A DNA stretch of 64,000 bases, from the NCBI GenBank assembly GCA_025765595.1, contig JAIVFH010000143.1, positions 1 to 64,000 of the forward strand, given 5' to 3'. Origin of the DNA: Obelidium mucronatum. Lineage: Eukaryota > Chytridiomycota > Chytridiomycetes > Chytridiales > Chytriomycetaceae. The notes under the pieces were generated by a model. The model did no database searches. It had not been told where the DNA came from and saw only the letters and a list, made by a program, of their open reading frames with translations. A program made the translations under genes and the position numbers. Below, one piece after another: positions 6,881 to 63,999 of the stretch (within the stretch, counting starts at the first letter, position 1; the number at the start of each line of letters is the position of its first letter).

Positions 6881-7020
6881 AGCCAAAAGTCCTGTATTTA
6901 AAAAATCTTTATATGTCACTGGTTGTTTCAAACTGTATCAAGATTGTTTGAATGCCAGACATGACAGATTTTCCATCCCTTCTGGGTCCATCAAGTATGT
7001 AACTTGGCCCTAACTTCTCC

Positions 7021-15799: not shown

Positions 15800-17710
15800 A
15801 TGTCAGTACCAACCAAAGGTGTGGCCAAACGAGCTCGACAACAAACAGCCTTTGAATCAGAACCTTCTCGACGATCCAGCAGTCGCTCGGTTGCTAAAGT
15901 AAGGTACATTCGCTTCTCTCTTTGTTTTAAGGTTGTGGGGGGAATCATCCCGCTCAAACAAGTGATTTACACACTTTTCCTCGCTCTGGAAAAGCTCCGC
16001 CTGGTATGTTGGATACGCGGATGATTCAGAGTCAATCGAAGCCATCATGAAAAAGTTTGACGCTCTCGAAAAGCTGAAGGAGGAAGTGATTTCATCAACG
16101 ACCAACAGCTCGAATGATGAAACCAAGATTGCGATTGCCGACGTTGCCCAAGGCACTGATACTACAACTTTCGAAAGTAAAAGTCCTGCTCCTTGTAGTA
16201 GCACGGGGATTCGACAGGAATCGGCTGCTGATGGGCTCGGTGAACGGGAGCTGGAAGAGTTGTTTCGGAGAACGTCCAAGGCAACGGTTCGAGAGCTGAC
16301 TAGTCATGCTTATTCTCAGCAGAAGCTATTTGAGGAGCTGGTTGGAAACGATGAAAATGATGAAGATGATGGTGATGCGTATGAATGGGAAAATGAAGGG
16401 GATTCTGTCAGTGGGGAGTCCAATAACGTGTACATGGATGATGAAAGGTAAAACAGCCCAAATTCAAGGTAGTGTTATTTTTTTGTGTTTTTAATGAACA
16501 TTGTTTGTTTTTTAAGGGAGGCTATACCCCAGACCAAAAGGCGGAGACGTCAACAAACAAAAGATAAGCAACCCCAAGAAGCCAAGCAGGGCCACGCCGA
16601 AACCAAAACACGAAGTAAACAAGCCGTTCTTCAAGCTCTTCAATCTGGATCATCTAAACCTCCACTACCATGTACACGGTTTGTTTTTTTTTTGTTACAC
16701 AGTTTCACTTTCAAATGGTGATTTTTTGTTGAATGAAAGAATATCAGACCTGACCCTGACAAGCCAATACATATCCGTATCCCGAATGCTTTATCCCGAG
16801 CATGGGGTAGAACCATCGAGCCATTCATCCAACCAGTGCCCGTCGTTCACGAAACCCACGCCTCCAACGAATACAAAACAATACGAATATCTATTTTGGA
16901 TCCAAAATCGGTGCCGTTGATCAAAATGGCATGTCCGAATCCGCTTGTCATCTATATGGACCCTCCCTTGTGCCCAGAACGAGACGTTGATCATAATCGG
17001 AATCACACGGATGGAAGAATAACAGTGAAAGAGCTTGCCAAACTCAAGATTCCATCCTTGATTCAGTCTGGCTTTCTGTTTATATGGGCTGAAAAGGAGT
17101 TTACGCCGGATATTTTGGTGTGTAAAGAAAACGTGGACAACCTCAAAAAAATAATCAATACGATTTTATTGACATGCAGTATTTAGAAAATGGCAGATGT
17201 TTGGGGATTCCGCTATGTCGAAAACTTTGTGTGGGTAAAATGGACGAAATGGCATCGAATCGCTAGCGAGCCTGGTCAGTACTTTCGAAAATCCAAGACA
17301 ACTTGTTTCATTTTTCGCAAGGAGGGGGAAGCAATAGATTTGAAGCATCAACGTAATCCAGACTGTGAATTTGACTTTATCAAGCCAATTCAGTTATGTC
17401 CCAGTCTCAGTTACACTACCGCTCCATCATTAAACTTTCAAACATTAGGCCTGGTCGCTTGACGCAAGAAAAACCTCGTTTGATCTATGATGTGATTGAA
17501 ACAATGTTACCAGACGCAGTGTCAGCCAGCAGGATGCTTGAATTGTGTGTGTCGTACCTGTCTTTTTTTTTTCCATTGTTTAATCTCTGACTTTTCCATA
17601 TTTTTCTTCCATGTTGGAACAGATTTTCACCAGCAAATAGCAGCAACCGGCGCGCTGGATGGACATTTGTAGTAGACGATTGTTTGTCCGAAAGCACCAA
17701 AACCGAATAA
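15800..17710 (+). CDS. MT-A70 (METTL3/METTL14/MTA)-family protein with DPPL instead of DPPW
   Basis: Exons 15800-15903, 15995-16447, 16517-16678, 16748-17117, 17187-17392, 17449-17544 and 17623-17710 give 492 residues. The N-terminal third has a short motif AWYVGYADDSES followed by a predicted helix, then acidic and basic low-complexity stretches. The C-terminal half is an MT-A70 fold: VIYMDPPL at about residue 309, then IPSLIQSGFLFIWAEKEF, ADVWGFRYVENFVWVKW, LTQEKPRLIYDVIETMLP and MLELFSPANSSNRRAGWTFV. The family transfers methyl from S-adenosylmethionine to N6 of adenine in RNA or DNA. The catalytic motif is normally DPPW; here the Trp is Leu, as in the structural partner METTL14 (EPPL), so this may be a non-catalytic subunit. 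Donors at 15,904 (GTACAT) and 17,393 (GTTATG) are weak but are the only ones that restore the frame. PSF1 starts 25 nt downstream. Confidence 0.75.
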
Positions 17711-17735
17711 ACAAACAACAAAAACAGCTAAACAA

Positions 17736-18676
17736 ATGAGCACGTCACTGTACGGCGACGAGGCGCTCAAGCTCATCCGCGAGAGCAAGCGCGCCAGCGA
17801 GAGCGGGGTGTTCAGCGCGTACAACGACAACGTGGTGCGCAACGTCAAGCTCGAGCTGCGGCATTTGTACGACGCGATCCGCGGGCTGCTGGGCGCGCGC
17901 GAGGACGTGTTCCGCCGCATGGCGGCCGTGCGCGCGGACGCAGACGGCGACGTGGAGCTGCGCTCGGACGACTTGGAGGACAACACGCTCGCGCCGCCGC
18001 AGTCGCAGTCGCAGGCGCAGCTGGCGGCGCTGTCGCAGGCGTCGGCGGGCTTCACCGTCGCTGCGCAGATGCACCACCAGGCGATGCACAGGAACAAGCG
18101 CCTGCTGCTGGTGTACCACCGCGCGCGTCTGGGTGCGTCGCCATGCTGCTCTCTTTGTCTCTTTGTCTCTTTGTCTCTTTGTCTCTTACTCAGTCTTGTC
18201 TTGTCTTTGCAGATGCAATTAGAGAAATGGTCTGGGACCTGGGTGGCGGTGCTGCTGCCGCTCTGGCCGAGGAAGGCGGAATCAGAATGCAACAACAGCA
18301 AAACAACAACAGCAACAGTGACAGCATGGACGAAGATGAGGACGATAACGACGGAGCTGACAATCAGCCGAATATGCAACATATTAGCGCCCTTCCTGCT
18401 TCAATTGTGCGTGCAATGTCACCCAACGAACTCGAATTTCTAGCAAACTATCGTCAACTTCTCGAGGACTATCGGGGATCCATGCTCGATATTGACTTGA
18501 GCGCACCTTTGATTCCTCCCAAAGATTTGTACGTGGATGTACGTGTAGTCAAGGAATTGGGTGAAATTGTTGCAGACAGCGGGACAATCCTGAAACTCAT
18601 GAAGGGAGAACAGCACTACGTGAGAAGATCAGATGTAGAAAAGTTTATTACTCTAGGATATTTGGTTCAAGTATGA
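17736..18676 (+). CDS. PSF1: GINS complex subunit Psf1
   Basis: Exons 17736-18132 and 18213-18676 give 286 residues. GINS (Sld5-Psf1-Psf2-Psf3) joins Cdc45 and MCM2-7 to form the replicative CMG helicase in the nucleus. The N-terminus MSTSLYGDEALKLIRESKR and the helical core match Psf1, with RNKRLLLVYHRARLDAIREM across the intron. The late block AMSPNELEFLANYRQLLEDY and the C-terminal PPKDLYVDVRVVKELGE plus HYVRRSDVEKFITLGYL are the conserved Psf1 tail. An insertion of Gln/Asn repeats and an acidic run (about residues 160-185) lengthens it beyond the usual 200 or so residues. Exon 1 is extremely GC-rich while exon 2 has the composition of neighbouring genes. The intron is mostly repeats of CTCTTTGT. 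The start codon is 25 nt after the stop of the MT-A70 gene. Confidence 0.9.
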
Positions 18677-19354
18677 TTTCACCCAACGAATTTGTAGAAA
18701 TGGGCAATGAAAACTGAGAGTAAATGTAACAATATTATTGAATTCTATCTTCAATTTTATTCTTGATTGCAGTAGAGAAAGACAAAGAAGAAATCGAATC
18801 GAAGTAGGAATCTCGGCCACACGGGTGTCTGAATCATTAAGAAAAATGGTTCGGAATGAAGGACAACACGTTGAGATGTGCTTTTTATGCGTTCAAGTCA
18901 ACTGTTCAAAAGACCGGGCACAAAGACTCTGGTTTTGCAGCCGCATCTTTGAGCATTTCTTTCAGGGTGAATGTATGTCGCTCAAGTCAATTGTTTGGTC
19001 CAACTGGTTTGCTTCATTCGCATCCAAGACAGACGGCTTTGTTTGCGGATGTTTCAGGACTTTTCGAATGAATGCAGTGCGCAAAGAAGTCAATGTGCTA
19101 GAGGCTGCGGCTTCAAAGTAGTTTAACAGAGAAAATCTATTAGCATTGATGGGCCGTGATGATATCATCGAGTTCGCTGAGATTTGGCGAAGAGTTGTGC
19201 GTAAATTAGTCAATGTGTTGGTGGCTGGTGCTTGACGTTCGAAGCATTTTTAAAGTGACGAGAAATAAATATAGATAAATATACATTACAGTTTATTATT
19301 ATTGAATAATGTAAAGAAGAAAAGACATTAAAAAGCAGTAAATCGAATCAAAGA
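18677..19354. other. Downstream of PSF1; no gene recognised
   Basis: Contains open stretches on both strands (plus 18,738-19,121; minus 18,962-19,213), neither starting with a convincing ATG context nor resembling a family I know. The bases 19,070-19,095 and 19,195-19,215 are weakly similar to each other (GTGCGCAAAGAAGTCAATGT versus GTGCGTAAATTAGTCAATGT). Transcripts from the minus strand here would lie directly 3' of the ribozyme at 19,355-19,426. Confidence 0.4.
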
Positions 19355-19426
19355 GGTTCAGTGTCAGCCAGGGAGAAGCCCTGTTACCAGCGGGAGCCAC
19401 GAGGAGGCCCTGAACCATATCCCGCC
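19355..19426 (-). ncRNA. HDV-family self-cleaving ribozyme
   Basis: Read on the minus strand from 19,426 to 19,355 (72 nt), all elements of the HDV double pseudoknot are present in order. P1 is GGCGGGA (19,426-19,420) with TCCCGCT (19,395-19,389), seven pairs, with the first being the G1-U wobble typical of the cleavage site. J1/2 is TAT. P2 is GGTTCAG (19,416-19,410) with CTGAACC (19,361-19,355). P3 is GCC/GGC, closing a loop TCCTCGT that matches the HDV L3 motif. P1.1 is GG (19,388-19,387) with CC in L3. P4 is CAGGG/CCCTG with loop CTTCT. J4/2, GCTGACA, supplies the catalytic C (complement of 19,367). The predicted cut is between 19,427 and 19,426, with U at -1. No larger element is obvious around it. 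Pairing and conserved nucleotides are seen directly; activity is inferred. Confidence 0.88.
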
Positions 19427-19565
19427 ACATACCTTTTAAACGCGTCCCATCCGTAAATAAAAAAAAAAAAAAAAAGGAGATTCAGAAAGGACAACACTTG
19501 CAGAACCCAACTTAAAAACCAAAAGCACCCATGAATGTAAAATAAATAACCAAAAGTCCCCTTTT

Positions 19566-19601
<36 letters not shown>

Positions 19602-20834
19602 GTGGCGCGTCTTTTCGCTTGTTTTTTTAACCCCCTTTCTTTTTGTCTGTTTTATGGGCCCGTCTTTTCGGTTGTTTTTAAGGGTTTTTTAGGAGGGGAC
19701 TTGGTGAGAATAGGAGGGGCTGGTGGGGGTTGAAGTGTTGTCCGAGTTAAGTTCCCGAGTTCTTGAAGAGAGAAGAAGTTGTTGGTTTTTAAGAGAGAAG
19801 AAGTTTTTGTGAGAAGAAAAGAGGAGGGAATCTGCTCCCTATTTATACCTTTTTCGATTTTTGACAATTCCGCAATGTTTGGCGGGTCTTGAAATCTGAA
19901 CCAAACATCAGAACGCGTCGGGGATAATTGCAAACCAATAAAATGCGTTACGGCGGTTCGAATGCGCTTTTCAAAAGCTGAAAACGGTGCTGTTTTTGTG
20001 TTTGTGTTGTTGTTGTGTTGGGAAAGAAAGCTGTGTCATTTTGGGTGAAAGTGGCCAACTCAAGGGGATCTGCATCTCGCATCACTGGCAGCTGCACCGA
20101 CCTTCGATGTGATAAATGAGGCTAATACATAGTATGGAGCATGTCTGAGCGCACGGATTGGCTTCCTGACAGACTCGGTCCATACTGTAACTGTTGACGG
20201 CACCAAACAACTAGACTTCACCGCGACGCCACCAAATACTGAGCTCAGCGCATACTCAAATTAGCCACAATATAGAATGTAATTTATCAGTCGCGATAGG
20301 GCGTCCGCGCATAGGGGGCTCATATTGGACAGAGTCTGAAGTTTGTTTGATGCAACGAGGCATCGACGAGCAGAGGCCACATTCCTATTCAAATAGAGTA
20401 AGCGCGATAATAGATACCATACAAAGCTTTGGTGAGATCATCGGTATTTAATGGCGGCCGCCTTTGTTTATTCGATACCGGGTGACTTATAAAGAGCGTG
20501 GCTAATCACGCCCAGAGCCAACGCATCGCGTACGAAACATTATATTTGAATGCATATGAATCGCTGGTTGGATTAGTGGCTGCTCATCTGGTGAGGAGTC
20601 ATGTGAGTAGAAGTTGACCTAACCATGACCAACGTTGAACAACTGCGGCCTCCTTTGATAAATACGAAAAATAATCTCGAAAGCAGCTGTTCTTCCGCTC
20701 CGCCACTTGTAGTACTTTTTTTGGTGTAGTCAAGGCTGAATATAGTGCCTGTTACCGCAAAGACCCGACCAAGTATCCAGAAGCCCAACCGTATCAACAC
20801 TGAAGTCTTGGTCAATTAAAAGGAAACGTGTAAT
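19427..20834. other. Intergenic region with A and T tracts; no gene recognised
   Basis: Includes an A17 run near 19,458-19,474 and a T33 run at 19,568-19,600. No coding region with family resemblance. The stretch 20,040-20,560 has higher GC and no ORF of note; an unrecognised ncRNA cannot be excluded. Minus-strand open stretches at 19,652-19,933 and 20,573-20,815 look like chance frames. Confidence 0.45.
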
Positions 20835-26234: not shown

Positions 26235-26726
26235 TGTTAGAACCAGATAGTCAATAAAAGACTTAAGGGTTCTTGGAGGCACGAGGGCTTAGGGGGCACG
26301 AGGGCTTGTCCAATAACGGCTTGAGGTCACGAGAGACGGGATTGAAGAGTTACAAAACTGAAGACTAACACAGAATGTATTGAAACTGAACTAAAACTAA
26401 GAGCAGAAAGCTTGCTATTTATGCAAGTTCTGGAATTTCAAATAACAAAAGTTCAAAAACAGAAAACAAACTGAAAATCAAACAGAAATTGTGATAGCAA
26501 GAGTGATAGCACAATAATATGTGAAATCAAGAATGATATCACAAAATGAAACAGAAAAACTTAGTAAAGTGACAAATCAAAGATGACAAATACAAAAATA
26601 GAAACTTAAAGTAAAATGTTACAAGCGGGGATCGAACCCGGGTTTCCACCGTGAGAGTCGCGCGTAATGTCCACTAAGCTACGGAAGTATAGAGAAATAT
26701 CCCTATAAGACGGGTGATTCCTAACA
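26235..26726 (-). repeat. 3' LTR of gypsy copy 1
   Basis: 492 bp, nearly identical to the right LTR. Ends form the 6-bp inverted repeat TGTTAG/CTAACA. Contains the same tRNA-like block and predicted start site as the 5' LTR. Confidence 0.95.
26622..26690 (-). other. tRNA-like sequence (A and B boxes) in U3 of the 3' LTR
   Basis: Minus strand has a Pol III A-box-like TAGCTTAGTGG and, about 40 nt on, a B-box GGTTCGATCCC, with CTCTCAC in the place of an anticodon loop (CTC would be Glu). Acceptor and anticodon stems do not pair well, so it is a degenerate tRNA-derived block rather than a working tRNA gene. Confidence 0.6.
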
Positions 26727-29700
26727 TCATCCCCTTCTTTTCTTGCGATTGCGAACACTTGCAGCAATCGCACCAGGACCAGGCTTATCGGGATATTTGG
26801 CATGGAATTCAGAAACCAACTCAGCAGCACCCGAAACATTGGCAGCAGGTTCCCAAGAGCGATCAGAGTTAGAATAACCCATCCAGTGTACCAAATATTG
26901 AAGTTTGTTGTAGAAAACGCGAGAATCCAAGATTTCTTGAACTTCCCATTCTTCAGTGTTGTCCACGATAACTGGCGGAGGCGGAGGTTGGGTAAACGCG
27001 GCGACAATATTCTTAGTTTTGGGATGCAGCAAAGACGCGTGGAATACTGGATGAATACGCATGGTAGAAGGTAAGGCAAGCTCAAAGGCGACTGGGTTAA
27101 TGACGCGCTTGACTTTAAAAGGACCAAGTTTCTTATCATCAATCTTTTGAGAAGGACGATTAGTCTTGATATTGCGGCGATCCAAGAAAACCAAGTCTCC
27201 GGGTTTAATTTCCGGAACCGGTAACCGAGATTTGTTGGCTTGTGTGGTGTAACCTTCCTGGGCAAACTTTAAGTTCGCACGAAGGTCTTCAAGAATTGTT
27301 TTCATAGACGCGAGGCGATTTTCAGCGTCAGGAACCGAGGATTCACGAATAACAGAGGGGTCAAAAATTGGATTGTGACCAGAGTTTGCGAAGAACGGTG
27401 TATGACCAGTAGTGGTTACCAAAGAATCGTTGTAGGCAAATTCGCAAAGCGGTAATTTGGATACCCAATCGTCTTGCTGGTAGTTACAGAAAACGCGTAG
27501 GTATTGTTCAATGACTTGGTTGAGGATCTCAGTAGATCCATCAGTTTGAGGGTGAAAAGCGGTAGAAATGTTAAGTTTAACGTTTAGGAGATCCATAAAA
27601 CGTTGCCAGAAACCACCAGTAAAACGCGGGTCGCGATCGGATACAATGGATCTGGAAGCACCGTGAAGTCTAAAAACTTCCCGAATGTAGATGTCTGCAG
27701 TATCAGCACCTGTAGAAGTTTTTACCGTAGGAATAAAGTGGGCTTGCTTGGTAAGCCTATCTTTTACCACAAGTAAGGCATCAAAACCTTGACTAATTGG
27801 CAAGTCAGTAATCCAATCCATAGAGATATCCATCCATGGTTTGGAAGGAACAGGTAAGGGTTGGAGAAGGCCAAATGGAGCATGGCGAGAAGGACGAGAA
27901 CGCTGACACGCGTCGCAGTTTGCGATGAAACGCTGAACTACGCGCCGCATGCGCGGAAACCAGTAATCGCGAGAGATTAACTCAACTGTTTTAGCAACGC
28001 CAAAGTGGCCAGCAGCGGGAGCACAGTGACGCTGACGGAAAACTTCAAGTTGAAGCTCCTCAGTTGGAAGGTAAATAAGTTCATCACGAAAGATGAGACC
28101 ATTGGATTCAGTGAAGATAATGTGTAACTTGCGCTTCTTGTGTAAGGCGTACAGAGCGGACTTGGAAGTAGCGAGGGTGACGCGATCGATCCAGCTTTTG
28201 TCCGAATTGACAATGGTAATGTCATCAATATCCACACGTTGGAATAGCTGAATAAAGTTTTGTTTATGCAGTTCATCGCCTTGCTGAGTGACGTAATCAG
28301 GGCGGCGGGACAGCGCGTCTGGTTTTCCGGAAAGTCGGCCAGGGCGATGAAAAATTTTAAAACTAAATTCCGACAACTTAGTCATCCACCTATATTGGCG
28401 ACGGGTCAGTTGTTGAACGGCAGTAAAGTTTTGAAGGCGGTCATGATCAGAGAAAACAATGATCGGATCCGAAGGCTCAACGGCTATCAGGTAATGTCTC
28501 CAAGCCGCGAACGCGTCTACGATGGCAAGCAGTTCCTTGTCGTGAGTATCGTAGTTGATTTCCGCCGGAATTAACTTGCGGGAATGAAAGGCAACCGGAT
28601 GTAACCTTCCATCCGAACCGAACTGGGATAAAATTGCGCCCAGTGCAAAATCTGAGCAATCAGTTTCCACATACACGGTACGACTGGGATCGAAGTGAAT
28701 CAGGACCGGAGCGGTGGAGAAGGCATGTTTAAGCTTTTCAAAAGCCGATGCCGCGGCTTCGGACCATGGAAAGGGTCCAATTTTGGCTTCCTTACGCGTT
28801 AGGCTGGTAAGCGGTAACACAATATCGGAGTAGCCGGTGATAAATTGGCGGTAAAAATTTGCAAATCCTAGAAAAATTTGCACGTCCTTGACAGACTGAG
28901 GTACCGGCCAACTGGAAACGGTAGCAACCTTGGCAGGATCCATCTTGACACCATCGGCAGAGAAGATATGGCCCAGGAATTCCGTGGAACTGGTATGGAA
29001 AGCGCATTTGGCAGGATTAACTACCAAGTTGTGTTTTCGCAAGCGCTCCAAGACTTCCTTAACGTGGCGTTCGTGTAATTCTTCATCTTCGGAAAAGATT
29101 AGAATGTCATCCAAATAAACGATGACAAACACGCCCAGTAAGTCCGAAAAAATGTCATTCATGAAGTACTGGAAGGCAGCTGGAGCGTTGGTTAGACCGA
29201 AACTAACCACATTATACTGGAAATGGCCAAACTTGCAGCGAAATGCAGTTTTCCATTCGTCACCAGAGCGTATTCTTAGTAAGTGGTACGCGTCCGGGAG
29301 ATCCAAGTGAGTGAAAATTTTAGCCTTGGATAATTTTCCCGCAAGATCCGTGAACAGCGGTAGCGGAAATTTGTTCTTGACTACAATGTTGTTGATGGCA
29401 CGATAGTCAATGCAAAGGCGGAAACCACCATTTGGTTTCTTGACAAAGAAGCAAGGGGCGGCAACCGGAGAGGTAGAGGGAGATATCCAGCCTCTAGCCA
29501 AGGCATTAGTAAGATATTCCTGGAGAACTTTTTCTTCGGCTGGGCTCAGTGGATAAATTTTCCCAGCCGGCGGTAATTTTGCCGAAGTTCCATCTTCATT
29601 CTTAACGATCTCGATAGGCAAGTCGTAAGGGCGATGAGGTGGAAGCGGCCGAGGAGTCTCAGACTTGGGTGCAAACACGTCCGAGTACTGCTTGTAGCGT

Positions 29701-30545
29701 AAAGGCACTCCTCTATCGTCAGAATCGATAGCAGACTCCTGATAGTCCTTTGTATTAATCACAGCTGAAATTGACACAGTGGGAGTGTCATCATCTTTAG
29801 AAGAAGTGACATCCATTCGAGCGGCAAAGATAGTAAGCCCGTGTTTCTTGGCAATGCCAAAGAACGCAGTGGTATTAAGCAACTCAACATCCGGTGTAGA
29901 ACTCGCTGGCGGATTTTCCGTCGGGATTGAAACAGAAGCGGTAGAAACCTCCAGATCCTTGACCGCAGGATCGTCTGGAGGGGAATAAGGCAAGGCCGTA
30001 AAAGCCTCAGGGGGCACGTGGTCAGCTGACAGGCAAGCCCCATCGGAGAACGTGACCAACATGTGACGCCAATTAACGCGAGGGTTGTGAAGGCGAAGCC
30101 ATGGAAGACCTAAAATAAGCGGACAAGAAATATCCGCGACAAGAAGAGACATCGTTTCGGTATGAGAACCAATTCGACAAATTAAAGGTACTGTTTGTTT
30201 AGTAATGGAGCGAGAGCGCGAACCATCTGCTAAATTAACATTGTACAAAGTGGAGGAAGGAATAACAGGTATTTTATTTCTTAGAGCGAAATCTAAGGAA
30301 ATAAGGCCGAAAGCCGAACACCCACTATCCACGAAGGCACCCAAAGAAAAGGGCTTGGTAAGGTTTGGAGATGAAGAAGAAAATTTTTCCCCGACAACAA
30401 GTGTACATGGAAGCACAATCTTGGAATCCGATGATGAGGGAACGGAAAGGTTGACAGTTTGCATCGCCAAACTGGGCGGGGAGTTTACGCCTGAGCACCC
30501 CTTCCCTGGGCGCTCCGAGCATTTTTTGCAACCAAGAGAGGGCAA
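26727..30545 (-). CDS. pol: Pol polyprotein of gypsy copy 1 (PR-RT-RNaseH-IN-chromodomain)
   Basis: An open frame of 1,272 codons, entered from gag by -1 frameshifting, so it has no ATG of its own. Aspartic protease motif FVDSGCSA near residue 73. Reverse transcriptase with YLDDILIFS near 473. RNase H with VETDCSDFALGA near 624. Integrase zinc finger H...C-x2-C (HFGVAKTVEL...CDACQRS) near 845-885, with catalytic Asp/Asp/Glu at MDWITDLP (about 905), SDRDPRF (about 973) and STEILNQVIEQ (about 1002). A chromodomain near 1200-1235 has LQYLVHWMGYSNSDRSWEP, which in such elements can steer integration to marked chromatin. All catalytic residues are present and no stop interrupts. The TGA stop is immediately next to the LTR. 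Confidence 0.95.
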   Translation of the reverse strand: MPSLGCKKCSERPGKGCSGVNSPPSLAMQTVNLSVPSSSDSKIVLPCTLVVGEKFSSSSPNLTKPFSLGAFVDSGCSAFGLISLDFALRNKIPVIPSSTLYNVNLADGSRSRSITKQTVPLICRIGSHTETMSLLVADISCPLILGLPWLRLHNPRVNWRHMLVTFSDGACLSADHVPPEAFTALPYSPPDDPAVKDLEVSTASVSIPTENPPASSTPDVELLNTTAFFGIAKKHGLTIFAARMDVTSSKDDDTPTVSISAVINTKDYQESAIDSDDRGVPLRYKQYSDVFAPKSETPRPLPPHRPYDLPIEIVKNEDGTSAKLPPAGKIYPLSPAEEKVLQEYLTNALARGWISPSTSPVAAPCFFVKKPNGGFRLCIDYRAINNIVVKNKFPLPLFTDLAGKLSKAKIFTHLDLPDAYHLLRIRSGDEWKTAFRCKFGHFQYNVVSFGLTNAPAAFQYFMNDIFSDLLGVFVIVYLDDILIFSEDEELHERHVKEVLERLRKHNLVVNPAKCAFHTSSTEFLGHIFSADGVKMDPAKVATVSSWPVPQSVKDVQIFLGFANFYRQFITGYSDIVLPLTSLTRKEAKIGPFPWSEAAASAFEKLKHAFSTAPVLIHFDPSRTVYVETDCSDFALGAILSQFGSDGRLHPVAFHSRKLIPAEINYDTHDKELLAIVDAFAAWRHYLIAVEPSDPIIVFSDHDRLQNFTAVQQLTRRQYRWMTKLSEFSFKIFHRPGRLSGKPDALSRRPDYVTQQGDELHKQNFIQLFQRVDIDDITIVNSDKSWIDRVTLATSKSALYALHKKRKLHIIFTESNGLIFRDELIYLPTEELQLEVFRQRHCAPAAGHFGVAKTVELISRDYWFPRMRRVVQRFIANCDACQRSRPSRHAPFGLLQPLPVPSKPWMDISMDWITDLPISQGFDALLVVKDRLTKQAHFIPTVKTSTGADTADIYIREVFRLHGASRSIVSDRDPRFTGGFWQRFMDLLNVKLNISTAFHPQTDGSTEILNQVIEQYLRVFCNYQQDDWVSKLPLCEFAYNDSLVTTTGHTPFFANSGHNPIFDPSVIRESSVPDAENRLASMKTILEDLRANLKFAQEGYTTQANKSRLPVPEIKPGDLVFLDRRNIKTNRPSQKIDDKKLGPFKVKRVINPVAFELALPSTMRIHPVFHASLLHPKTKNIVAAFTQPPPPPVIVDNTEEWEVQEILDSRVFYNKLQYLVHWMGYSNSDRSWEPAANVSGAAELVSEFHAKYPDKPGPGAIAASVRNRKKRRG

Positions 30546-31768
30546 GCTTTGGTGTCAGAAGCACCCTTGCAACCGTCTTGACCACAGTAAGCGCAAAGAC
30601 CTTTATCCTTGCGGCGCTGACGTTCCTCGTGGGTGGGCTTGCCTGACTTGACATCAGCAGCGGCAACATCAGCAGACCCAGAGGGCTTGGAAGTAGCGCC
30701 TGGGTTATTGGAGCGAGAGCTGGAACCAGAACCTTGGTTACCCTTGGAGGATCCAGAACGTTTGTTGTTAGCAAACACGCGCTCATCGAAGACAATGGCC
30801 TTGCGCATGAGCATGGAGAGGTTGGTTGGTTGAGGTTCCAGACCATCAATATAGTTCATCACGTGAAGCTTGAGACCCTGCTTGAACATCAACATCTTGG
30901 TGTAATCGTTGTGTTGAGTACCAGCAATCCAACGGAGAAAATCGCGGGCGTAGGCTTGACAAGAAGTAGTTTGGGTCAAGGTCTTGGCTTTGTCGTTGGC
31001 AATTGCTTCAGCGACACGTGGATCTTCGCCGAAGAAGGCGGCAAAGACATCGGCAAATTCCTGAAAGCTCTTGAACTGGAGCTCAGGCTTGGCGACGTGG
31101 TTGATGTACCACTTGGCAGCATTACCACCAAGGTAGGAAACCACGAAAGCAATCTTGGACTTGGTGGAAAGAATTCCCTTGGGTCCAGAATTATCAAAAT
31201 TGAGATAGACTTTGAGCATAAAGTCATCAAAATCGTCAGTAACGAGGCCCTTGAAAACAGGAGGCTTGGCAACGCGAAGAGAAATTTTGTCAGACTTGGA
31301 GGGTTCGAACCGGGAACCCGTTTCAGACTGATCATCAGAGTCCGAAGCGCTACCAACTGGGCTAACTGAACGTTGACGATGAACTTTACGATCGGCTTTT
31401 GATGATGCAGCAAACGCTTCAATGACTTTATCAAGACGACTGGATTGATTGCGGACAAGACGAGAAAGAGCCAAAAGATCCGTACGGAAGGCATCCATGG
31501 ATGTGGCCACATCAAATTCATTATCTGTGTTGGCTTCCATGTAGCGACTGGCCTCGTCAATTCCATCCAGGACATTGTTGGTTTGTTGTTCAGATCCATC
31601 ATCTTCATCAAAATCATTCTTGAGGGAGACAAGGTTGGGAGCAACGGAGCGACGAGTAAGCAAAGATTGGTCAGCGGCGGGGTTTGAAGGACCAGTGGCC
31701 GAAGAAGAGGGAGCAGCGGCAAAACCGACAGATTTCCGAGGGGCGGTGGCAGGAGGAGTATCAGCCAT
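30485..31768 (-). CDS. gag: Gag protein of gypsy copy 1
   Basis: 427 residues from an ATG 24 nt after the LTR. The central region is a retrotransposon capsid (KIAFVVSYLGGNAAKWYINH). The C-terminal quarter is Ser/Gly/Asn-rich, followed by a Cys-rich knuckle CAYCGQDGCKGASDTKACPL. This keeps C-x2-C-x4-C spacing but has Cys where the usual CCHC knuckle would place its later ligands and lacks the His. Gag forms the virus-like particle and packages the RNA. Its last 61 nt overlap pol in the -1 frame, with a slippery site just before the stop. Confidence 0.93.
   Translation of the reverse strand: MADTPPATAPRKSVGFAAAPSSSATGPSNPAADQSLLTRRSVAPNLVSLKNDFDEDDGSEQQTNNVLDGIDEASRYMEANTDNEFDVATSMDAFRTDLLALSRLVRNQSSRLDKVIEAFAASSKADRKVHRQRSVSPVGSASDSDDQSETGSRFEPSKSDKISLRVAKPPVFKGLVTDDFDDFMLKVYLNFDNSGPKGILSTKSKIAFVVSYLGGNAAKWYINHVAKPELQFKSFQEFADVFAAFFGEDPRVAEAIANDKAKTLTQTTSCQAYARDFLRWIAGTQHNDYTKMLMFKQGLKLHVMNYIDGLEPQPTNLSMLMRKAIVFDERVFANNKRSGSSKGNQGSGSSSRSNNPGATSKPSGSADVAAADVKSGKPTHEERQRRKDKGLCAYCGQDGCKGASDTKACPLLVAKNARSAQGRGAQA
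30493..30527 (-). promoter_or_regulatory. Programmed -1 ribosomal frameshift signal (gag to pol)
   Basis: On the minus strand the gag frame reads GCA AAA AAT, giving the slippery heptamer A AAA AAT (30,527-30,521). After a 5-nt spacer comes a 7-bp stem GAGCGCC/GGTGCTC (30,515-30,509 with 30,499-30,493) around a 9-nt loop. Pol lies in the -1 frame relative to gag, and the site is inside the gag-pol overlap. The same heptamer and stem recur in copy 2 at 62,856-62,890. Confidence 0.85.
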
Positions 31769-59085: not shown

Positions 59086-62000
59086 TCATCCCCTTCTTTT
59101 CTTGCGATTGCGAACACTTGCAGCAATCGCACCAGGACCAGGCTTATCGGGATATTTGGCGTGGAATTCAGAAACCAACTCAGCAGAACCCGAAACATTG
59201 GCAGCAGGCTCCCAAGAGCGGTCAGAGTTAGAATAACCCATCCAGTGGACTAAATATTGAAGTTTGTTGTAGAAAACGCGAGAATCCAAGATTTCTTGAA
59301 CTTCCCATTCTTCAGTGTTGTCCACGATAACTGGCGGAGGCGGAGGTTGGGTAAACGCGGCGACAATATTCTTAGTCTTGGGATGTAGCAAAGACGCGTG
59401 GAATACTGGGTGAATACGCATGGTTGAAGGTAAGGCAAGCTCAAAAGCGACTGGGTTGATGACGCGCTTGACTTTAAAAGGACCAAGTTTCTTATCATCA
59501 ATCTTTTGAGAAGGACGATTAGTCTTGATATTGCGGCGATCCAAGAAAACCAAGTCCCCGGGTTTAATTTCCGGAACTGGTAACCGAGATTTGTTGGCTT
59601 GTGTGGTGTAACCCTCCTGGGCAAACTTTAAGTTCGCACGAAGGTCTTCAAGAATAGTTTTCATAGACGCGAGGCGATCTTCAGCGTCAGGAACAGAGGA
59701 TTCACGAATGATAGAGGGGTCAAAAATTGGATTGTGACCAGAGTTTGCGAAGAATGGTGTATGACCAGTAGTGGTTACCAAAGAATCGTTGTAGGCAAAT
59801 TCGCAAAGCGGTAACTTGGAAACCCAATCGTCTTGCTGGTAGTTACAGTAAACGCGTAGGTATTGCTCAATGACTTGGTTGAGGACCTCAGTAGATCCAT
59901 CAGTTTGAGGGTGAAAAGCGGTAGAAATGTTAAGTTTAACGTTTAGGAGTTCCATAAAACGTTGCCAGAAACCACCAGTAAAACGCGGGTCGCGATCGGA
60001 TACAATGGATCTGGAAGCACCGTGAAGTCTAAAAACTTCCCGAATGTAGATGTCTGCGGTATCAGCACCAGTAGAAGTTTTTACCGTAGGAATAAAATGG
60101 GCTTGCTTGGTAAGCCTATCTTTTACCACAAGTAAGGCATCAAAACCTTGACTAATAGGCAAGTCAGTAATCCAATCCATAGAGATATCCATCCATGGTT
60201 TGGAAGGAACAGGTAAGGGTTGGAGAAGGCCAAATGGAGCATGGCGAGAAGAACGAGAACGCTGACACGCGTCGCAGTTTGCGATGAAACGCTGAACTAC
60301 GCGCCGCATGCGCGGAAACCAGTAATCACGAGAGATTAACTCAACTGTTTTAGCAACACCAAAGTGGCCAGCAGCGGGAGCACAGTGACGTTGACGGAAA
60401 ACTTCAAGTTGAAGCTCCTCAGTTGGAAGGTAAATAAGTTCATCACGAAAGATGAGACCGTTGGATTCAGTGAAGATAATGTGTAACTTGCGCTTTTTGT
60501 GTAAGGCGTACAGAGCAGACTTTGAAGTAGCGAGGGTGACGCGATCGATCCAGCTTTTGTCCGAATTGACAATGGTAATGTCATCAATATCCACACGTTG
60601 GAACAGCTGAATAAAGTTTTGTTTATGCAGCTCATCGCCTTGCTGAGTGACATAGTCAGGGCGGCGGGACAGCGCGTCTGGTTTTCCGGAAAGTCGGCCA
60701 GGGCGATGAAAAATTTTAAAACTAAATTCCGACAACTTAGTCATCCACCTATATTGGCGACGGGTAAGTTGCTGAACGGCAGTAAAGTTTTGAAGGCGAT
60801 CATGATCAGAGAACACAATGATTGGATCCGAAGGTTCCACGGCTATCAGGTAATGTCTCCAAGCCGCGAACGCGTCTACGATGGCAAGCAGTTCCTTGTC
60901 GTGAGTATCGTAGTTGATTTCCGCTGGAATTAACTTGCGGGAGTGAAAGGCAACAGGATGTAACCTTCCATCCGAACCGAACTGGGATAAAATTGCGCCC
61001 AGTGCAAAATCTGAGCAATCAGTTTCCACATACACGGTGCGACTGGGATCGAAGTGAATCAGGACCGGAGCGGTGGAGAAGGCATGTTTAAGTTTTTCAA
61101 AAGCCGATGCCGCGGCTTCGGACCATGGAAAGGGTCCAATTTTGGCTTCCTTACGCGTTAGGCTGGTAAGCGGTAACACAATATCGGAGTAGCCGGTGAT
61201 AAATTGGCGGTAAAAATTTGCAAATCCTAGAAAAATTTGCACGTCCTTTGACAGACTGAGGTACCGGCCAACTGGAAACGGTAGCAACCTTGGCAGGATC
61301 CATCTTGACACCATCGGCAGAGAAGATGTGGCCCAGGAATTCCGTAGAACTGGTATGGAAGGCACATTTGGCAGGGTTGACTACCAAGTTGTGTTTCCGC
61401 AAGCGCTCCAAGACTTCCTTGACGTGACGTTCGTGTAATTCTTCATCTTCGGAAAAGATTAGAATGTCATCCAAATAAACGATGACAAACACGCCCAGTA
61501 AATCCGAAAAAATGTCATTCATGAAGTACTGGAAGGCAGCTGGGGCGTTGGTTAGACCGAAACTAACCACATTATACTGGAAATGGCCAAACTTGCAGCG
61601 AAATGCAGTTTTCCATTCATCGCCAGAGCGTATTCTTAGTAAGTGGTACGCGTCTGGGAGATCCAAGTGAGTGAAAATTTTAGCCTTGGATAATTTTCCC
61701 GCAAGATCCGTGAACAGCGGTAGCGGAAACTTGTTCTTGACTACAATGTTGTTGATGGCACGATAGTCAATGCAAAGACGGAAACCACCATTTGGTTTCT
61801 TGACAAAGAAGCAAGGGGCGGCGACCGGAGAGGTAGAGGGAGATATCCAGCCTCTAGCCAAGGCATTAGTAAGATATTCCTGGAGAACTTTTTCTTCGGC
61901 TGGGCTCAGTGGATAAATTTTCCCAGCCGGCGGTAATTTTGCCGAAGTTCCATCTTCATTCTTAACGATCTCGATAGGCAAGTCGTAAGGGCGATGAGGT

Positions 62001-62908
62001 GGAAGCGGCCGAGGAGTCTCAGACTTGGGTGCAAACACGTCCGAGTACTGCTTGTAGCGTAAAGGCACTCCTCTATCGTCAGAAACGATAGCAGACTCCT
62101 GATAGTCCTTTGTATTAATCACAGCTGAAATTGACACGGTGGGAGTGTCATCATCTTTAGAAGAAGTGACATCCATTCGAGCGGCAAAGATAGTAAGCCC
62201 ATGTTTCTTGGCAATGCCAAAAAACGCAGTGGTATTAAGCAACTCAACGTCCGGTGTAGAACTCGCTGGCGGATTTTCCGTCGGGATTGAAACAGAAGCG
62301 GTAGAAACCTCCAGATCCTTGACAGCTGGATCGTCTGGAGGGGAATAAGGCAAGGCGGTAAAAGCCTCAGGGGGAACGTGGTCAGCTGACAGGCAAGCCC
62401 CATCGGAGAATGTGACCAACATGTGACGCCAATTAACGCGAGGGTTGTGAAGGCGAAGCCATGGAAGACCTAAAATAAGCGGACAAGAAATATCCGCGAC
62501 AAGAAGAGACATCGTTTCGGTATGAGAACCAATTTGACAGATTAAAGGTACTGTTTGTTTAGTAATGGAGCGAGAACGCGAACCATCTGCTAAATTAACA
62601 TTGTACAGAGTGGAGGAAGGAACAACAGGTATTTTATTTCTTAGAGCGAAATCTAAGGAAATAAGGCCGAAAGCCGAACACCCACTATCCACAAAGGCAC
62701 CCAAAGAAAGGGGCTTGGTAAGGTTTGGAGATGAAGAAGAAGAAAATTTTTCCCCGACAACAAGTGTACATGGAAGCACAATCTTGGAATCCGATGATGA
62801 GGGAACGGAAAGGTTGACAGTTTGCATCGCCAAACTGGGCGGGGAATTTACGCCTGAGCACCCCTTCCCTGGGCGCTCCGAGCATTTTTTGCAACCAAGA
62901 GGGGGCAA
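59086..62908 (-). pseudogene. pol: Pol of gypsy copy 2, broken by one frameshift
   Basis: Upstream part (62,908 to about 61,250) holds protease and reverse transcriptase including YLDDILIF. An extra T near 61,247 shifts the frame shortly after the RT core, and the rest (RNase H, integrase, chromodomain; to 59,086) continues in the other frame without further breaks. Protein similarity to copy 1 is near identity on both sides, so the lesion is recent or a sequencing slip in a TTT run. Confidence 0.9.
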
Positions 62909-63999
62909 GCTTTGGTGTCAGAAGCACCCTTGCAACCGTCTTGACCACAGTAAGCGCAAAGACCTTTATCCTTGCGGCGCTGACGTTCCTCGTGAGTAGG
63001 CTTGCCAGACTTGACATCAGCGGCGGCAACATCAGCAGACCCAGAGGGCTTGGAAGCAGCACCTGGGTTATTGGAACGGGAGCTGGAACCAGAACCTTGG
63101 TTACCCTTGGAGGATCCAGAACGTTTGTTGTTAGCAAACACGCGCTCATCGAAGACAATGGCCTTGCGCATGAGCATGGAGAGGTTGGTTGGTTGAGGTT
63201 CCAGACCATCAATATAGTTCATCACGTGAAGCTTGAGACCTTGCTTGAACATCAACATCTTGGTGTAATCGTTGTGTTGAGTACCAGCAATCCAACGTAG
63301 AAAATCACGGGCGTAGGCTTGACAAGAAGTAGTCTGGGTCAAGGTCTTGGCTTTGTCGTTGGCAATTGCTTCAGCGACACGTGGGTCTTCGCCGAAGAAG
63401 GCGGCAAAGACATCAGCAAATTCCTGAAAGCTTTTGAACTGGAGCTCAGGCTTGGCAACGTGGTTGATGTACCACTTGGCAGCATTACCACCAAGGTAGG
63501 AAACCACAAAAGCAATCTTTGGACTTGGTGGAAAGGATACCCTTGGGTCCAGAATTGTCAAAATTGAGATAGACTTTGAGCATAAAATCATCAAAATCAT
63601 CGGTAGCAAGGCCCTTGAAAACAGGAGGCTTGGCAACACGAAGAGAAATTTTGTCAGACTTCGAGGATTCGAACCGGGAACCCGAGTCAGACTGATCGTC
63701 AGAGTCCGAGGCACTACCAACTGGGCTAACTGAACGTTGACGGTGAACTTTGCGATCGGCTTTTGATGACGCAGCAAATGCTTCAATGACTTTATCAAGA
63801 CGACTAGATTGATTGCGGACAAGACGAGAAAGAGCCAAAAGATCCGTACGGAAAGCATCCATGGATGTGGCCACATCAAATTCATTATCCGTGTTGGCTT
63901 CCATGTAGCGACTGGCCTCGTCAATTCCATCCAGGACATTGTTGGTTTGTTGTTCAGATCCATTATCTTCATCAAAATCATTCTTGAGAGAGACAAGGT
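62848..63999 (-). pseudogene. gag: Gag of gypsy copy 2, frameshifted and truncated by the window edge
   Basis: The upstream frame (63,904 and beyond, to about 63,520) encodes the N-terminal part, starting MEANTDNEFDVATSMDAF within this window. An extra T near 63,519 moves the capsid and knuckle region (to 62,848) into another frame. The slippery heptamer and stem for entry to pol are conserved at 62,856-62,890. Confidence 0.88.

Follow-up and report, generated by a model that had tools for sequence, protein, structure and literature searches.

Dispersed promoter-leader modules with HDV-like ribozymes in the chytrid Obelidium mucronatum, and candidate control of downstream messages

We describe an HDV-like self-cleaving ribozyme (drz) on the minus strand of a 64-kb stretch of Obelidium mucronatum DNA (hereafter, the window) and analyze its relatives across the genome of this chytrid. 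Judged from its sequence and from that of its relatives, the window ribozyme is almost certainly real. The interpretation that we put forward, with about even confidence, is that of a genuine ribozyme residing in a dispersed promoter-leader module, which would sever RNA polymerase II (Pol II) transcripts where their leader ends and whose most likely consequence would be control of the downstream message. Eukaryotic HDV-like ribozymes are best known from retrotransposons and from a few host-gene sites. In Obelidium, many copies are linked to a promoter and several immediately precede the start codons of host genes, whose messages may cut themselves before use. If cutting takes place in vivo, a eukaryote would be using RNA catalysis to strip ordinary mRNAs of the leader that bears the cap, and both cap-independent translation and ribozyme-based gene control would become directly testable in a free-living fungus. 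Among the titles and abstract starts surveyed, none dealt with ribozymes of Obelidium or described an HDV-like ribozyme cassette preceding host genes, and the one paper there that brought self-cleaving ribozymes and chytrids together is on ambiviruses.

Fold and detection of the window ribozyme

The initial annotation of this DNA had claimed all five helices of an HDV-like ribozyme without a mismatch, together with a J4/2 segment carrying the expected C, and direct reading of 19426-19355 on the minus strand bears out both claims. Numbered from 19426 as nucleotide (nt) 1, the ribozyme occupies 19355..19426 (-) and is predicted to cleave between 19427 and 19426. P1 (GGCGGGA/TCCCGCT, 7 bp; nt 1-7/32-38; 5′ strand 19426-19420, 3′ strand 19389..19395) opens with a G-U pair and is followed, across a J1/2 of sequence TAT, by P2 (GGTTCAG/CTGAACC, 7 bp; nt 11-17/66-72; 5′ strand 19410..19416, partner 19361-19355). 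A single nucleotide, G18, separates P2 from the 3-bp P3 (GCC/GGC; nt 19-21/29-31), which spans 19396..19408 together with its loop L3 (TCCTCGT). The CC of L3 pairs with the GG at 19388-19387 to form the 2-bp P1.1 (CC/GG; nt 23-24/39-40), and P4 is a 5-bp hairpin (CAGGG-CTTCT-CCCTG; nt 44-48/54-58; 19369..19383). J4/2 reads GCTGACA and holds the candidate catalytic C, C60 (19367), which is invariant in the six ribozyme types compared and whose role we presume from HDV ribozyme biochemistry.

The window was scanned on both strands with a descriptor requiring a P1 of 7 bp (G-U allowed), a P2 of 5-7 bp, a P3 of 3 bp, P1.1 as CC/GG, a P4 of 4-5 bp and a C early in J4/2. The scan returned exactly one site, 19426-19355 (-), and none in 60 dinucleotide shuffles. 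The two Rfam models, of the kind proposed initially as a check, match at the site, and both score under their gathering thresholds (RF00094, 34.0 bits, gathering 50, E 0.0024; RF02682, 29.6 bits, gathering 44, E 0.001), so that a default Rfam scan does not include it. A gathering score is a threshold of the model and not a defining chemical feature of HDV-like ribozymes. Our covariance model R1, in which the window sequence itself is included, assigns the window copy 96.5 bits. An energy fold restricted to nested pairs scored the ribozyme no better than shuffles (z +1.1); such a fold is uninformative here, since the method cannot form P2 or P1.1. The window copy has in common with RF00094 and RF02682 the nested double pseudoknot, the L3 consensus TCCTCGY, the C of J4/2 and an expected cleavage 5′ of P1, and it differs from them in scoring under gathering, in its compact P4, in the one nucleotide between P2 and P3 and in belonging to a multi-copy chytrid lineage of its own.

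Genomic relatives, covariation and constraint

The Obelidium mucronatum genome (48.3 Mb, 694 contigs) contains at least 41 ribozyme places on 25 contigs, taken as the union of a search with the 72-nt window sequence and of searches with core patterns; all copy counts are lower bounds. The 72-nt search matched 34 places, and nine of these, including the window copy, are identical over the full 72 nt despite differing flanks. The core pattern was found at 40 places (39 exact, one with a single mismatch; reversed control 0), and a looser version recovered the same 40 (control 0). A total of 39 of the 41 places were read, comprising all 34 of the 72-nt search and five of the other seven. By grouping near-identical flanks and taking several contigs as second alleles, we infer about 27 loci. 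Matches to two ribozyme patterns were absent from viral contigs, and on this basis a viral source of the ribozyme was rejected.

The copies fall into six sequence families, designated A (that of the window copy), B, C, D, E (C219/C258) and F (C324), with one degenerate copy on C344 (L026). Families A and D are alignable over the ribozyme only, beginning 2 nt before the cleavage site. P1 occurs as GGCGGGA/TCCCGCT, GGCGGAA/TTCCGCT, GGCAGAC/GTCTGCT and, in family F, GATGGGA/TCCCATT; the nucleotide between P2 and P3 is G in A-D and F, and C in E; and P4 ranges from CAGGG-CTTCT-CCCTG to longer hairpins, varying in length and sequence with its pairing kept. Application of the Rfam models to the genome led to family E, and the window copy was absent from these genome-wide matches among the part of the candidates that was scored. 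Family F was found by pattern and lies outside model R1, which still scores it at 67.2 bits (E 2e-13).

Of the 20 distinct sequences read, 16 entered the covariation analysis; F, two other E variants and the degenerate copy on C344 were set aside. Over 25 pairs and 16 sequences, 99.2% of cells are paired, and double-sided changes affect 10 of the 25 pairs, distributed across P1, P2, P3 and P4. This degree of covariation was reached by 0 of 500 shuffles, and slid versions came nowhere near it. For eight of these 10 pairs the change comes from family E, a single row; changes at the sixth pair of P1 and at the inner pair of P4 occur in D as well, and in three of the 16 sequences the outer pair of P2 is not formed. 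A second comparison used six types, with F and two E variants included and with P4, which aligns badly, omitted. The 19 pairs of P1, P1.1, P2 and P3 form in all six types and nine of them show double-sided changes (0 of 500 shuffles), one of the five measures used, the number of pair types, being no better than in shuffles (446 of 500). P1.1 never varies among the relatives and is hence uninformative on covariation.

Relatives without compensatory changes in P1 and P2 had been named initially as the finding that would count against a ribozyme. What the relatives present is double-sided change in three of the seven P1 pairs and in three P2 pairs for the 16-sequence set, and in five of the seven P1 pairs and three P2 pairs among the six types. 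The P2 changes all come from family E, which was first found via Rfam models of the HDV fold, a route that favors P1, P3 and P4; because RF02682 as printed has no P2 pairing, these three P2 changes constitute the more independent part of the evidence. The first P1 pair is G-U in all 16 sequences and in all six types, which fits the minus-strand reading of the window site only.

Constraint was examined at seven distinct loci with an identical ribozyme, where the ribozyme has all 72 of its 72 columns invariant, the leader 315 of 431 and the stretch immediately behind the ribozyme 34 of 73. A row of 72 invariant columns has a chance of 2e-10 at the leader rate and of about 0.003 when the best leader segment alone (94 of 102) sets the rate, so the contrast is strong with respect to the flanks and milder with respect to the promoter-proximal leader. 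Over 12 family A copies, conservation stands at about 0.93 from -550 to -200, at 0.98 in the ribozyme and at 0.67 after it.

These results bear directly on whether the site could be a product of chance, or a repeat maintained at the DNA level, without ribozyme function. An energy fold not above shuffles and Rfam scores under gathering are what such a sequence might display, but the descriptor site is unique in the window, the compensatory changes contradict the idea, the ribozyme is more invariant than its own flanks, and family F is matched by a model from which it was left out. We therefore deem this explanation highly improbable, and the HDV-like identity first proposed gains support from the exact fold, from covariation among genomic relatives and from the match to family F.

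The promoter-leader module and its downstream genes

Families A-C very probably represent one module, composed of a TATA promoter, a leader, the ribozyme and an AATAAA motif. Their common core promoter, with TATAAATA, is located about 410-535 nt upstream of the cleavage site. In the window, the TATA box of the leader promoter (AAAAGGTATAAATAGG; 19842..19847, -) lies 421 nt upstream of that site, and the putative transcribed leader, with its start placed from the TATA box, would cover 19427..19820 (-). Searching the genome with 240 nt of an A promoter yielded 28 places, several of them allele pairs. At 27 of the 28 a ribozyme follows downstream on the same strand, 508-713 nt from the promoter match (487 nt in one case where a contig end truncates the promoter); the remaining match is a stub of 61 nt at the end of its contig. 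In family D, two of five copies have a TATA-like box near -390. The leader is pairwise 94.7-98.6% identical among the seven loci (gaps ignored) and, promoter and ribozyme apart, differs from one of the families A, B and C to the next. A structured leader RNA was considered and is unsupported, the leader being less structured than shuffles (z +2.06), and the family A leader shows no depletion of upstream ATG codons relative to dinucleotide shuffles.

The AATAAA of the window lies at 19292..19297 (-), 57 nt past the ribozyme end. Of the 34 tabulated copies, 31 have the motif at +114 to +139, and L022 (twice) and L025 have it at +304 to +319; in families E and F its position is +138 to +286. Homology between A copies with different neighbors stops roughly at AATAAA. 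On the other side of the ribozyme, most A copies carry directly 5′ of it the sequence AAAAG/GTATGT, which resembles a 5′ splice site, and B, C and L009-L012 carry GTAAT directly 5′ of the cleavage site. Placement of the ribozyme at the start of a 5′-UTR intron, as these motifs (AG/GTATGT, GTAAT) might indicate, was set aside because D, E and F have no such motif and the stretch from ribozyme to ATG in L030 has no AG.

Host start codons at intact loci follow the ribozyme by 60 to about 180 nt, or by about 290 nt in the case of GT64. At L024, and at its likely allele L031, the start codon of VAC8 is at +135, 60 nt past the ribozyme and 7 nt past AATAAA, which at L024 is seen around +122, just before that codon. 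By eye, the VAC8 N-terminus (MLCNCF...RRGYTAL) resembles that of Rhizoclosmatium VAC8 (MLC...SRRGYQRL), and exon 1 is followed by GTAAGA. The short distance and the orthologue-like N-terminus together place the ribozyme in, or directly at, the 5′ UTR. The first 120 nt of VAC8 were copied along with the module to C86 and C300/C425, which we interpret as the behavior of a mobile or duplicating segment. Other copies precede a DUS2-like gene (ATG +251; Dus E 7e-11 further down), a universal stress protein gene (ATG +201; Usp E 7e-14 in a later exon), an SNF2 gene (ATG +196; SNF2 E 3e-31 at +1790, introns assumed), an SLC12-like gene with a weak match (ATG +138 or +141; E 0.0016) and GT64 (ATG +364 in L034, domain in L027), for which another GT64 stretch lies upstream. 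The C161 copy is adjoined by an RTA1-family protein, 99% identical to an Obelidium mucronatum protein. Open frames of no recognized family stand behind L006 and L039 (ATG +320), and the open frame downstream of L004 has a sub-threshold LCD1 match.

Downstream of the window ribozyme there is a frame relic, MLRTSSTSHQHID (19206..19247, -), with a TAA stop at codon 14 and open in C143:75138 (L004); a homologue of the MLRTSS frame was sought and none was found. At C215/C5:639286, too, the ribozyme is perfect while the frame that follows it is broken at codon 13. Broken frames beside perfect ribozymes at these sites imply that selection there is not for that frame. A convergent frame lies behind the ribozyme in L010, L012 and L036, and no same-strand gene was recognized behind L013-L014, L017, L018, L022 and L025. 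The convergent neighbor of the window copy (17676-18440, +) gave no Pfam match; from its appearance by eye, we take it to resemble a PSF1-type GINS subunit.

Two pairs of possible or likely alleles differ in module organization. L022 (C362:2260 and 3602) holds two ribozyme units 1342 bp apart, and its possible allele L025 on C198, 78% identical over 1659 nt, holds one; copy number may vary here. L003 (C203) and L020 (C33:243674), likely alleles with a shared left flank and right-hand gene, differ in module extent, and in L003 the coding start of the module and the frame of the next gene lie in one 226-codon open frame.

Proposed function and rival explanations

In the mechanism that we propose, Pol II would start about 30 nt past the TATA box and produce a leader whose length would be about 390 nt for the window copy and about 380-500 nt across families A-C. 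Once the ribozyme is complete, the RNA would cut itself between 19427 and 19426, freeing the capped leader with a 2′,3′-cyclic phosphate end. The downstream RNA would retain the folded ribozyme at its 5′-OH end, pass AATAAA and, at intact loci, enter the start codon of a host gene. Cleavage would uncap this message and lower or condition its expression; alternatively, the ribozyme fold might aid a cap-independent start, as proposed for R2. A broader version makes the spreading cassette a gene-control device: an HDV-like ribozyme would cut dozens of transcripts, those of core host genes such as VAC8 among them, at the leader end, translation would proceed on uncapped mRNAs headed by a ribozyme, and the cassette would have reached new genes along with pieces of old ones. 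We consider this version doubtful.

The position of the ribozyme ahead of likely native start codons argues for a device of the mRNA leader, whereas perfect ribozymes ahead of broken frames argue for a unit kept for itself, be it a noncoding-RNA gene or a mobile segment. As an independent Pol II noncoding-RNA gene, the module would use the ribozyme to make its 3′ end and AATAAA as a backup polyadenylation signal, with neighboring genes as bystanders. The perfect ribozymes beside broken frames agree with this, as do the sharp drop in conservation past the ribozyme, the copies with a convergent frame or no recognized gene behind them, and the regular presence of AATAAA in 31 of the 34 copies, which would be as much in keeping with the end of a transcript as with a 5′ UTR. 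At L024, however, the likely native VAC8 start codon follows AATAAA so closely that no room is left for a separate VAC8 promoter, and a leader that is less structured than shuffles and divergent among A, B and C outside promoter and ribozyme also speaks against a noncoding-RNA gene, which we regard as an unlikely alternative.

The modules might instead be remains of a mobile element (a solo LTR, SINE-like or retrozyme-like), in which the ribozyme serves replication and proximity to genes reflects insertion preference, a possibility that we rate as rather improbable. The dispersal of copies over 41 places and the pieces of host genes taken with them point in this direction, as do the tandem pair at C362 versus one copy on C198 and the association of promoter, ribozyme and AATAAA, which is reminiscent of an LTR. 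The initial annotation saw no element near the ribozyme and left host function or a solo remnant open. Its first part stands among the RVT_1 matches scored (150 of 224 candidates), the nearest to the window copy being 9.5 kb away, in a Ty3-type element; its second part is narrowed, in that the window copy belongs to a dispersed promoter-leader-ribozyme module that at several places directly precedes host start codons, and is itself a copy whose downstream frame is broken. Within the same 150 matches, the nearest RVT_1 to any ribozyme lies at 5.1 kb (C33:274173) and no same-strand reverse transcriptase frame was found behind any copy. Flanks of at least 2 kb on both sides were read at part of the 41 places. 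The 3′ part of a Ty3-type pol (H2C2, SH3, chromo; L013:2-1360, C19:198001-199359) lies 0.85 kb behind the family C copy C19:200209. The RVT_1 matches scored miss it, and partial elements can thus escape such a scan; since it is on the opposite strand and at one of 41 places, this fragment, a point in favor of a mobile element, leaves our assessment unchanged. Against such an element, neither sharp common ends nor target duplications were seen by eye in the alignments, and no empty second allele came to light when the DNA flanking C5:689289 and C33:292416 was searched. A tandem pair of the unit was seen at C362 only.

Retrozymes have LTR ends and, like the Obelidium modules, are non-coding dispersed units with a ribozyme; of their hammerhead ribozymes and circular RNA (PMC4918200) and their LTR ends, none is shown for the Obelidium units. 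In R2 and L1Tc/ingi, as treated in PMC8256844 and PMC4035085, the ribozyme is ahead of the coding sequence, with a possible IRES role for R2, and in L1Tc promoter and ribozyme are joined; an IRES role is proposed for the HDV-like ribozymes of R2 and L1Tc in PMC8256844. The Obelidium ribozyme also precedes coding sequence, but of host genes, with no same-strand reverse transcriptase found behind its copies (150 matches scored of 224 candidates), and its promoter, unlike that of L1Tc, stands 400-500 nt before the ribozyme and would be missing from the RNA after cutting. CPEB3 (PMC10919898, PMC8256844) has in common with our loci an HDV-like ribozyme in a host gene; there it is single and intronic, whereas Obelidium has many copies between promoter and start codon. 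Fungal HDV variants, in the section of PMC5640933 devoted to them, typically show C-G pairing at the cleavage site, with P4 containing a loop E, and cleavage was shown for constructs of two species. They resemble the Obelidium ribozymes in being fungal and multi-copy, in the extra nucleotide between P2 and P3 and in their variable gene association. The Obelidium ribozymes differ in the G-U pair at the cleavage site (16 of 16 sequences, six of six types) and in a P4 that reads as a plain hairpin, and the section on the fungal variants gives no promoter or leader context of the kind found in the Obelidium module.

Elsewhere in the window, ten tRNA-Lys(CTT) genes (-) alternate with ten tRNA-Leu(AAG) genes (+) over 33232-57914. 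The units measure about 2.1-2.4 kb, one larger gap interrupts the series, and 73-bp satellite arrays intervene; an eleventh tRNA-Lys lies at 7020. The array is flanked by two Ty3-type chromodomain retrotransposons, one at 26606-31768 with its pol domains in one 1272-codon frame and the other at 59086-63996 with these domains in two overlapping frames.
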